Of a stretch of DNA of 20,199 nt, positions 1 through 3,125 are shown piece after piece (positions within the stretch are counted from its first letter, which is position 1; each line of letters opens with the position of its first letter). Under the pieces are notes generated by a model that was not told the origin of the DNA, made no database searches, and worked only from the letters and a program-made list of their open reading frames with translations. A program made the translations under genes and the position numbers. Source of the stretch: a virus; the IMG/VR virus record IMGVR_UViG_3300001533_000616, positions 1 through 20,199 of that record. One strand, written 5' to 3'.

Positions 1-45
1 TAAAAAAACAGAATGGAAACCTTTAGGTGTATGGGGGAATTGCTA

Positions 46-894
46 ATGATTATTGTATCAGGTTGTAGAAGATCGGGCACATCATTAATGATGAGACTAT
101 TAGGTATGAATTTAGGCTTTGATAGGATTTATGGTGAAGCACACCCTATGGGAATAAGGAAGTCACCCTTTGATACACAGGGTATGTTTGAGCTACGGCG
201 TGAAGCAATGCAGCCATCACCAGAGATACAAGAAAAAAGACAACAGTTACAAGGTGATGGTGTCTATGAGTGTGAATACACTATTAGTGGATTACGTTAT
301 GATTATTATACACCATTACCACCAAGGAACAGTATAATTAAGGTTGTAGCAGAGGGTCTTATTAATACGGACCCATCACTAATTGATGAAATAATCTTCA
401 TGGTTCGTGATCCATATAATATGCTATTGAGTCATAGTAAGATTATATATAAGACACCTATGTTTGATGATGCATCGCAGGTCTTCTTTGAACCATTGGA
501 TCCTCCTGGTGCTATTGATCAATTGTTACAAGCATCATTGTTTCTTAATAAATATAAAGGTAAATTGACTTTAGTGCAATATGAAACAATGTCAACAACC
601 AAACTACCATATATAGAAGTAGGATATGGCACAATCAAACCAAAAGCACATGCTATCATAGGTAATTTAGATGATGGTATTTGGGCTGAATTATATAAGG
701 TCTATGACCTATTCCAGAATCATAAATTTCAAGACATAATTAACACAATTATGAGACCTGATAGTTTTTATGCTTTCCATACACGACCTTGGTATTGTAA
801 CGGCAAGTTAGTAGATTTTATTGATTGTAACAACTGTGATGATTTAAATTGTACATATAAAATGGAGGTAGAAAAATGCAAACCGACACTATAA
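46..894 (+). CDS. Sulfotransferase-like P-loop protein
   Basis: Probably a PAPS-dependent sulfotransferase or a relative that binds a similar nucleotide. From the start at 46 it has 282 residues. SGCRRSGTS at residues 5-13 fits the 5'-phosphosulfate-binding loop, and MVRDP at about 119-123 followed by SHSK fits the 3'-phosphate-binding motif; both are seen directly, and the family assignment is from memory of the family. An in-frame ATG at 13 would add 11 residues but has no ribosome binding site. The ATG at 46 follows GGGGA with 7 bases of spacing and gives the N-terminus usual in this family (MIIVSG). The C-terminus carries a Cys cluster (CNNC..LNC) that is not part of the core fold. The substrate is unknown; phage or host surface glycans are possible. 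The gene overlaps the next one by 19 bases, so the two are likely co-translated. Confidence 0.72.
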   Translation: MIIVSGCRRSGTSLMMRLLGMNLGFDRIYGEAHPMGIRKSPFDTQGMFELRREAMQPSPEIQEKRQQLQGDGVYECEYTISGLRYDYYTPLPPRNSIIKVVAEGLINTDPSLIDEIIFMVRDPYNMLLSHSKIIYKTPMFDDASQVFFEPLDPPGAIDQLLQASLFLNKYKGKLTLVQYETMSTTKLPYIEVGYGTIKPKAHAIIGNLDDGIWAELYKVYDLFQNHKFQDIINTIMRPDSFYAFHTRPWYCNGKLVDFIDCNNCDDLNCTYKMEVEKCKPTL

Positions 895-1532: not shown

Positions 1533-1569
1533 ATGCGCCAGTGGACTAAAGCACTGGCGCATTTTTTTT
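1533..1569 (+). terminator. Intrinsic terminator of the plus-strand operon
   Basis: An 11-bp GC-rich stem (1533-1543 with 1552-1562) and an 8-base loop are followed by a run of eight T on the plus strand. It lies 37 bases past the stop of the Cys/His-rich gene. The same bases encode the last residues of the minus-strand NrdD-like mini-gene, whose TAG stop falls in the loop. Confidence 0.88.
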
Positions 1570-1710
1570 GCTAAGAGCTATGTTATAGTTCTTACGGTCT
1601 TTAAATTCTTCTCTTTTTCCTTTGTTCCAATATGCAACAGGCCTAAAGTAGCCACAGACACGGCTATATATCTCACATTTTAGACCACATTTTTGGCGTG
1701 TAGAACTCAT
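1546..1710 (-). CDS. 54-residue NrdD-like glycyl-radical-loop protein
   Basis: A small gene read from ATG at 1710 to TAG at 1546. Its core matches the C-terminal end of class III (anaerobic) ribonucleotide reductase NrdD: CEIYSRVCGYFRPV at residues 12-25, then WNKGKREEFKDR at 28-39. In NrdD, the RVCGY-type motif contains the glycine that carries the catalytic radical (Gly20 here), and the WN.GK.EEF.DR stretch follows it. Cys8 and Cys12 resemble a remnant of the NrdD zinc ribbon, but two full CxxC knuckles are absent. There is no catalytic barrel or ATP-cone, so it cannot be a reductase by itself. It overlaps the end of the DUF115-like gene by 38 bases. AAGGA lies about 12 bases before the ATG, rather far. 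It could be a spare-part radical domain, a regulator or a leftover; the motif match is strong and the role is open. Confidence 0.72.
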   Translation of the reverse strand: MSSTRQKCGLKCEIYSRVCGYFRPVAYWNKGKREEFKDRKNYNIALSKKNAPVL

Positions 1711-2377
1711 GATTATTACAGATCCTTTCTATTATAGCTCGTTGTGTAAAAAATCTTTTATTATATTTCATATTATCGGGAAGATGTTGTAGTTGTTTTG
1801 GATAACCCCATTCACCAATTGCACTTGCATCACAACTCACAAAAATCTGTTTGCTACACCCCCAAAATTGACTTATTTTTGCAGCAAAACCAACAGTGAA
1901 ATCAACCCTTGTTTCATGATTAATCAAATCAGGTGTTATTATATACTTTTTAGGATGACTATTATATAAGCGACCACTATAGATACCTAATAACATTGAC
2001 CCCTTTGTTGACCAACATGATTCATTAATCTTGAGTACATCAAGCTGTGCAGCATAGATATGGTCATCATAATAATCCTCAACATAATGAATAGCTTGAT
2101 TAATACAAATTTTAGGGTAACTGGGGTCCAAGTCATATTCGGTTAAATAATCAAGACTAGGTCCTTTACCAATTATGTAACATGGTAGCCCTAAGTATTG
2201 GTTCTTTGTCTCCTTAAATGGATTATTAGGATCAAGCAATCTCCATCGATAACCTATATTGTCTAATAAGTAACAATACTTAATTAATGGTGCTAATACG
2301 TTAGGGTTTCGAGTATGTGCAATGAAGTTACCATTATAGTCCCTAATATAACCTCTTAGTTCACAGGGTATGTCCAT
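1673..2377 (-). CDS. DUF115 / MptE-like GKGPSLD protein
   Basis: A 234-residue protein with the motif CYIIGKGPSLDYL at about residues 66-78, followed about 20 residues later by KICINQAIHYV. This glycine-rich GxGPSL loop and the following (I/V)xxNxA strand are typical of the DUF115 (6-hydroxymethylpterin pyrophosphokinase MptE-like) group, whose members are often linked to sugar or nonulosonate transfer onto surface structures and also occur in phages. IFVSCDASAIG near residues 180-190 resembles the later conserved strand. The start is supported by AAAGGA about 10 bases upstream, and the gene overlaps its upstream neighbour by 22 bases. No membrane segment is seen. It may act on glycans like the nearby sulfotransferase-like protein, but that is inference. 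Confidence 0.6.
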   Translation of the reverse strand: MDIPCELRGYIRDYNGNFIAHTRNPNVLAPLIKYCYLLDNIGYRWRLLDPNNPFKETKNQYLGLPCYIIGKGPSLDYLTEYDLDPSYPKICINQAIHYVEDYYDDHIYAAQLDVLKINESCWSTKGSMLLGIYSGRLYNSHPKKYIITPDLINHETRVDFTVGFAAKISQFWGCSKQIFVSCDASAIGEWGYPKQLQHLPDNMKYNKRFFTQRAIIERICNNHEFYTPKMWSKM

Positions 2378-2781
2378 CTTTGGTTTTCCTTTACACCTAA
2401 TAATAATTCCCGTTTGTTATTGTATTTGTTATCCTGGTCCACTGGCTCCTGGTCCACTGGCTCCTGGTCCACTGGCTCCTGGTCCAGGTCCACTGGCTCC
2501 TGGTCCACTGGCTCTAAGACCCGATTTGTACATTGAACGCAATTTACCTTTTTGATTGGTTCATCGCCACAGTAGTAAGACTCAACGAGCGTCTTACAGC
2601 AAGCTGACTTAACCATTACTTTCCTCAATTTCAGACAAGCAATGTCAACGGATTTGAATCTACTTTTCCCAACTTTAATAAAGCCCTCTATTTCTCTGGG
2701 TACATCCTTTGTCATAAAAAAAATAACATCACCGTTATTATTCATAAGATATTTGCGATTATCAATTTGTTGTAATTTCAT
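2356..2781 (-). CDS. Cys-rich protein with EPVDQ repeat linker
   Basis: A 141-residue protein of unknown function. The N-terminal half is a small mixed domain. It is followed by a Cys cluster (SACC, YYCGDEP, NCVQC; about residues 59-83) that could bind zinc; CGDE plus a later CxQC resembles the cluster in the plus-strand Cys/His-rich protein. Residues of about 88-115 are an acidic tandem repeat, EPVDQ five times with one unit reading EPVDLDQ, probably a flexible linker. The C-terminal 25 residues are basic and polar. An AGGA site about 7 bases upstream supports the ATG at 2781. The gene sits among accessory genes after the tail module. Confidence 0.72.
   Translation of the reverse strand: MKLQQIDNRKYLMNNNGDVIFFMTKDVPREIEGFIKVGKSRFKSVDIACLKLRKVMVKSACCKTLVESYYCGDEPIKKVNCVQCTNRVLEPVDQEPVDLDQEPVDQEPVDQEPVDQDNKYNNKRELLLGVKENQRWTYPVN
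2434..2514. repeat. 15-bp tandem repeat (CTGGTCCACTGGCTC, 5 units)
   Basis: Units at 2434-2448, 2449-2463, 2464-2478, 2479-2499 and 2500-2514. The copies are identical except the fourth, which carries an extra 6 bases (a GGTCCA duplication). All changes keep the reading frame of the Cys-rich gene, in which each unit encodes EPVDQ on the minus strand. The tract is much richer in GC than its surroundings. Confidence 0.95.
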
Positions 2782-2834: not shown

Positions 2835-3125
2835 TTAAGACCCTTTCTTTTTAAAATTAAATAATAAATCTGCTTCCTCCTTCCATTTTAACGCCTCTTT
2901 TAATGTTTCAAAATATTGTGGTATTGTATATTCGACATCATGTATATCTGAACAGGGTGTTATGTCAAGTAACCATATGGTATTGGGTGTTATTTTATAG
3001 ATTAAATAATCTAAGTATGTTTCACCTTTTGAACCAACACCATTACAGTAACTATCCCACACATCACGATGTTGTGCGTAGAGTGTACGTGCAACTTCTG
3101 ACATTTGTAGTCCATTATAACGCAT
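2835..3125 (-). CDS. Small protein of unknown function
   Basis: A 96-residue protein that I do not recognise. The start codon shares a base with the stop of the upstream gene (TAATG) and GGAG lies 5 bases upstream, so it is translated as part of the late operon. It is soluble and mixed alpha/beta in character: a helical N-terminus (QMSEVARTLYAQH), a central strand pair (TIWLLDITPC) and a C-terminal amphipathic helix (FETLKEALKWKEEADLLF) ending in a Lys-rich tail. It follows two large tail-tip candidates; an accessory virion or assembly role is possible but unproven. Confidence 0.7.
   Translation of the reverse strand: MRYNGLQMSEVARTLYAQHRDVWDSYCNGVGSKGETYLDYLIYKITPNTIWLLDITPCSDIHDVEYTIPQYFETLKEALKWKEEADLLFNFKKKGS

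Follow-up and report, generated by a model that had tools for sequence, protein, structure and literature searches.

The stretch of viral DNA analysed here (20,199 nucleotides, referred to as the window) encodes a stand-alone version of the glycyl-radical domain (GRD) of NrdD, the class III ribonucleotide reductase (RNR). Comparison with viral and cellular relatives makes it probable, at roughly three chances in four, that the gene is a phage copy of the exchangeable GRD subunit found in split class III RNRs, and that its product works in trans with the NrdD barrel of the host. The features of the window that bear on this reading are the following.

1546 to 1710, minus strand: ORF of 54 amino acids, the stand-alone NrdD GRD (translation, Pfam NRDD match, 41 short-ORF relatives)
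1651 to 1653, minus strand: codon of Gly20, the predicted radical glycine in RVCGY (invariant in 37 of 37 aligned sequences, at the position of the NrdD radical glycine)
1687 to 1689, minus strand: codon of Cys8, which corresponds to the fourth cysteine in the zinc ribbon of fused NrdD (alignment to CPxCGxxCEVYSRV)
1594 to 1629, minus strand: WNKGKREEFKDR tail, residues 28-39 (W28, N29, K32, E35 and R39 invariant in alignment A1)
1673 to 2377, minus strand: ORF of 234 amino acids directly upstream of the GRD (ORF list), with a 38-base overlap at the GRD start in a different frame
1500 to 1562, no strand assigned: two hairpins with A/T runs, at 1500-1527 and 1533-1562 (sequence and RNA folding)
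2835 to 3125, minus strand: ORF of 96 amino acids with homologues near GRD genes in phage contigs L001 and L009 (neighbour clustering)

The GRD frame starts with ATG at 1710 and stops with a TAG ending at 1546, and its predicted product is MSSTRQKCGLKCEIYSRVCGYFRPVAYWNKGKREEFKDRKNYNIALSKKNAPVL. The first-pass annotation had located it correctly, omitting the strand, and the features it pointed out (start, stop, RVCGY with Gly20, WNKGKREEFKDR tail) are all present in the translation. The search against NrdD-family profiles that it called for gave clear matches. Pfam NRDD (PF13597) matched with an E-value of 4.3e-11 and 42.6 bits (cut-off 26.2 bits), NCBIfam NrdD (TIGR02487) with an E-value of 1.9e-10, and PHROGs contributed a weak NrdD match. 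NRDD was the only hit in the Pfam scan down to E 1, which returned no match of the pyruvate formate-lyase (PFL) type. By these scores, the match to NrdD is beyond chance. It spans columns 526-562 of 562, and since these are the last ~37 columns of the profile, the homology is limited to the C-terminal radical loop of NrdD. The catalytic barrel, already described as missing, is indeed absent from the window: a PF13597 search of the entire 20,199-base record, which is a fragment, found the GRD as its single match. Nor does the window protein have a full zinc ribbon of the Cys4 type ahead of its radical loop. The C-x3-C pair noted earlier consists of Cys8, the only match to a ligand position, and Cys12, at a position occupied by C, T or V among relatives.

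Tape-measure, major head and scaffold-like proteins identify the record as that of a tailed phage. The GRD gene is the last of a leftward gene run, and the overlapping 234-residue ORF upstream of it has no match in Pfam and PHROG searches. The hairpin pair downstream folds at -36 kcal/mol on either strand, with the GRD stop codon in the loop of the second hairpin, and is likely to be a two-way terminator between convergent genes. Elsewhere in the window, a 141-residue ORF (2356-2781, minus strand) carries a tandem (D)QEPVDQEPV repeat, with a DNA repeat near 2431-2513, and an ORF at 13-894 (plus strand) has a weak sulfotransferase match below the cut-off (Pfam E 0.0017).

The window gene is not an isolated case. 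A scan of IMG/VR yielded 41 further GRD loci, and all 41 have a short ORF. In an alignment of 37 sequences, most of them picked without requiring the glycine, since the seeds included several other peptide patterns, the columns S16, R17, G20, P24, W28, N29, K32, E35 and R39 are invariant. The radical-domain reading of the first-pass annotation, which would have been refuted had related phages lost Gly20 or had the profile search given no NrdD match, is supported by both checks. The pooled phage pairs have a pN/pS of ~0.41, indicating purifying selection, and conservation parallels that of fused NrdD position by position. The 41 short-ORF relatives and the invariant glycine rule out a chance match or a decayed remnant. 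That the gene is a functionless left-over of a broken nrdD, as the missing barrel of the window might suggest, has a negligible probability in view of the same short form in 41 other viral loci, often with its own ribosome-binding site and start, and of the purifying selection. Three of the viral GRDs (L032:2817-3155, L036:5794-6114 and L044:4680-5114) have an extra N-terminal Cys-rich segment (CHDCG...KCxxC), which is perhaps a zinc ribbon of their own. These extensions indicate that the domain is being recombined, and could point to a protein whose fold has been kept for a non-radical role, such as regulation of NrdG or NrdD, or metal binding. Such repurposing usually relaxes the glycine, whereas conservation in the viral family equals that of fused NrdD at each position, and we therefore consider it very improbable.

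The expectation that related phages would lack a full nrdD holds for 23 of 24 viral GRD records, in which a PF13597 search found no barrel. The exception, contig L002, carries a barrel without a GRD, in the order GRD, radical-SAM activase (Pfam Radical_SAM, Fer4_12) and NrdD barrel. The barrel matches PF13597 from 1 to 530 and terminates in ...CPKCGYISGEHDTCPNCV*. As it contains one in-frame TGA (L002:8175-8177), the L002 phage may read TGA as an amino acid. In the phage loci, an activase adjoining the GRD was found only in L002 and in the phage with a fused NrdD, L043. A further contig, 37 kb long (IMG/VR 3300028857_000016, containing both L001 and L005), carries a pair of distinct stand-alone GRD genes, and the search detected no barrel there. 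In the best-populated group, the neighbours of the GRD genes encode exonuclease VIII, ssDNA-binding protein, a Sak4-like protein, RusA, primase and a ParB-like protein. A small domain mimic could in principle tie up the host NrdG or block the barrel of NrdD and so deprive the host or competing phages of dNTPs; a takeover factor of this kind could well be encoded by a lone, exchangeable gene. This inhibitor or decoy role is improbable, though somewhat less so than repurposing. All residues needed for radical function are under purifying selection, chiefly the glycine, which a decoy would not need; L002 combines GRD and activase with a barrel on one contig, as a working enzyme would require; and many copies lie amid replication and recombination genes.

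The natural partner of such a domain is found in cells. In a scan of GTDB genomes, split NrdDs were identified in which a barrel ORF is followed by a GRD ORF of 45-60 amino acids and a radical-SAM activase, the latter being present in every split locus of sufficient length. The barrels stop inside or just after the zinc ribbon, at profile position 657-664 of 699. This arrangement is encoded by numerous anaerobic bacteria and by some archaea; it occurs in Desulfuromonadales, Lentisphaerota, one planctomycete, Muiribacteriota, Margulisiibacteriota, Elusimicrobiota, Micrarchaeota and Woesearchaeota. Because the relative frames of barrel and GRD vary among loci, and translation of the GRD has a start of its own, in many cases with a ribosome-binding site, the two are separate genes. 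For the same reasons, a programmed frameshift or stop read-through joining them is out for most loci. An intron or intein as the cause of the split was rejected as well, as most gaps measure tens to hundreds of bases and the sequences flanking the split are divergent tails.

A PF13597 survey of five classes, with class names inferred from the seed loci, showed how common the split is. In the class of the Desulfuromonadales genome G033, a split copy is present in each of the 55 genomes with NrdD, accompanied in one genome by a fused copy, and in the class of G049 (46 genomes) the split copy is present in 43 of the 43 genomes with a barrel. For the class of G028 (Lentisphaerota), the proportion is at least 18 of 81, and for that of G287 (Bacteroidia) it is 3 of 7; the class of G288 (Clostridia) has almost exclusively fused NrdDs. 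When 67 barrels were placed in a quick tree, the split label had to change 8 times, and well-supported branches made at least 4 of these changes unavoidable; the split thus appears to have arisen independently at least four times. Further variants of NrdD organization were encountered. Two genomes (G201 and G203) have two divergent split NrdD sets each, and one locus (G239:C100) has two tandem GRD genes behind a single barrel. Three archaeal NrdD frames of 1125-2639 amino acids (L084, L102 and L105) contain large inserts that are likely inteins, and five fused NrdDs (L043, L071, L086, L093 and L116) continue beyond the GRD into a glutaredoxin/thioredoxin-like CPNC tail.

The first-pass annotation had taken the window protein for a trimmed form and had suggested, by analogy with YfiD/GrcA, that it could be a spare part, decoy or regulator. 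Its domain assignment was correct, but it overlooked NrdD without a GRD as the natural partner. As NrdD is essentially always split in the classes of G033 and G049, we prefer the description as the GRD subunit of a split NrdD; the term spare part may still explain why phages carry it.

The zinc ligands suggest which kind of barrel the window GRD would fit. One group of split barrels (type A) ends in ...CPxHGYxxGEHxxCP[HLY], without the fourth ribbon cysteine, and the partner GRDs start with KCxxKTEVYSRVCG, which has a cysteine at that place. Another group (type B) retains CPxC, and the partner GRDs lack the cysteine. Exceptions to the complementarity are L002, where both chains carry the cysteine, and L153, where neither does. 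Because barrel and GRD ligands complement each other, we infer a zinc site shared between the two chains of type A pairs. The window sequence KCGLKCEIYSRVCGYF fits the KCxxKTEVYSRVCG[YF] pattern of type A partners, which, with Cys8, assigns its GRD to type A.

A structure model is in line with this assembly. At locus L101, the barrel and the GRD share a reading frame, which allowed the DNA to be read through two TGA codons to obtain a single chain for AF2. The model has a mean pLDDT of 85 and a pTM of 0.80. The barrel is ordered, the junction (660-680, 21 residues) is disordered with pLDDT <50, and the GRD is again ordered with values of 81-86. Residues 96-719 of the model superimpose on residues 85-735 of P. 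copri NrdD (8p2s_B) with a Z-score of 36 and an rmsd of 2.6 over 562 residues, and alignments were also obtained with the T. maritima, T4 and S. thermophilus NrdDs. According to the model, the split GRD is compatible with the usual docked place. The result speaks to compatibility only: as the two parts were covalently joined by read-through and the input alignment included fused relatives, the model does not prove that the GRD binds in trans. Within the SCCR motif, the CC pair, which is required for activity of T. maritima NrdD (PMC4493059), is invariant in split and fused barrels.

GRDs without an adjacent barrel also occur in cellular genomes, usually in those that carry a split NrdD elsewhere. 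In the class of G028, such orphans were found in 9 of 18 genomes with split NrdD, in 2 of 63 with only fused NrdD, and in 0 of 18 without NrdD (9/18 versus 2/63: Fisher p 8e-6, with counts confounded by relatedness and assembly quality). Pooled counts point in the same direction, with 6 of 170 on the fused-only side; they were made by hand, are confounded by relatedness, and overstate the fused-only side by including three cases later shown not to be of the orphan-GRD type. Among the candidate orphans, those of G511, G321 and G501 proved to be fragments or to come from the tails of another NrdD type; a fourth, in G485, does not match the NrdD profile.

The orphans bear on the possibility that the phage GRD is a spare part for full-length NrdD, replacing a tail lost to oxygen as YfiD/GrcA and T4 Y06I do for PFL. 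The mechanism is established for PFL, its extension to other glycyl radical enzymes has been suggested (PMC8683613), and clear orphan GRDs are present in G030 and G111, two genomes in which only fused NrdD turned up (both are draft bins, possibly incomplete or contaminated). Yet orphans favour genomes with GRD-less NrdD, the survey of the Clostridia type, with nearly all NrdDs fused, yielded no clear orphan GRD, and Cys8 fits a barrel without the fourth zinc cysteine. A spare part for the fused enzyme is thus unlikely, if still the least improbable of the alternatives to a GRD subunit for split NrdD.

The chromosomal orphans checked individually (L147, L148 and L149, from a set that also contains L150, L151 and L154) are prophage genes, lying among terminase, head, primase and transposase genes. 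Over 8,352 bases, the IMG/VR provirus L008 matches part of the G058 chromosome with 100% identity; G058 thereby harbours a relative of the window GRD (L008/L148). The NrdD of G058 itself is split, with a type A GRD (L146). For the related phage L019, the closest DNA matches come from the class to which G058 belongs. The cellular GRDs nearest to the window protein are mostly from Lentisphaerota, with split NrdD, which suggests a possible host of the window phage there. No viral relatives were found for the window neighbour gene and the major head protein, and a comparison of the neighbour and head proteins with 198 genomes of the class containing Lentisphaerota gave one weak match.

The window protein can be compared with several known systems. 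With class III NrdD (PF13597; structures from P. copri, T. maritima and T4), it shares the C-terminal GRD with radical glycine loop and tail, but it lacks barrel and ATP-cone, has one of the four zinc ligands, and is 54 residues long instead of ~600-740. GrcA (YfiD, T4 Y06I) is likewise a separate small radical glycine protein, in one case phage-borne. However, GrcA is of PFL type, has ~14 kDa, and backs up a complete enzyme, whereas the domain in the window is that of NrdD and is an obligate missing piece in hosts with split enzyme. RNR chains divided between genes have been described, namely the split class II NrdJa/NrdJb and phage split NrdA or NrdD (PMC9669993, PMC3653736). In these cases, class II chains are divided, or genes are broken by introns, inteins or homing endonucleases. 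In contrast, the NrdD cut described here frees the radical domain, is seen again in lineages that are not related, and leaves a piece that phages carry by itself. A viral relative of 144 residues from the ANMV-1 virus (AJP62049.1, in KP703175.1) has the same GRD and no barrel in its record. It differs by an extra N-terminal Cys-rich segment and by its archaeal hosts, and is annotated as 'anaerobic ribonucleoside triphosphate reductase', as if it were an enzyme. Spare radical domains have been demonstrated only for PFL, and their existence for other glycyl radical enzymes has been stated to be open (PMC8683613). We found no report of a class III RNR with a separate radical-domain protein in the open-access literature, subscription journals being mostly outside the search.

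If the phage protein is a GRD subunit for split NrdD, the host NrdG would place the radical on Gly20, the GRD loop would dock into the barrel of the host (or another) NrdD, Cys8 would complete the zinc site of the barrel, and the pair would make dNTPs for phage replication. Oxygen cuts glycyl radical enzymes at the radical glycine, with loss of the downstream piece (PMC8683613, PMC3019208). In a split enzyme, the cut would cost only a subunit of ~50 amino acids, which can be remade. We propose that supplying the GRD alone would be cheap and sufficient, because it is the oxygen-cleaved, exchangeable part. A GRD from the phage would then renew or raise the RNR activity of the host during replication. 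With dATP, the GRD of the P. copri enzyme becomes mobile and the substrate can no longer bind (PMC11226230). More speculatively, a phage GRD with altered docking could loosen the dATP feedback.

A wider picture can be offered only tentatively, as we would sooner bet against it than for it. In many anaerobes, the radical domain of class III RNR may be a replaceable 'cartridge', and phages may supply their own, either to renew an oxygen-cut enzyme or to keep the host RNR active under conditions that would turn it off, such as inhibition by dATP. Apart from this picture, class III RNR, which makes DNA precursors, is a second glycyl radical enzyme in which the radical domain can be its own protein, of ~50 amino acids and across whole classes. 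The arrangement may account for a cheap tolerance of anaerobes to oxygen damage of their RNR, and split NrdD is a small and clean system for the study of radical transfer between two chains. The window GRD would be a very small phage auxiliary metabolic gene. Finally, the two halves of a working enzyme can appear as a short protein bearing the annotation 'anaerobic ribonucleoside-triphosphate reductase' and an NrdD gene with an apparent C-terminal truncation.
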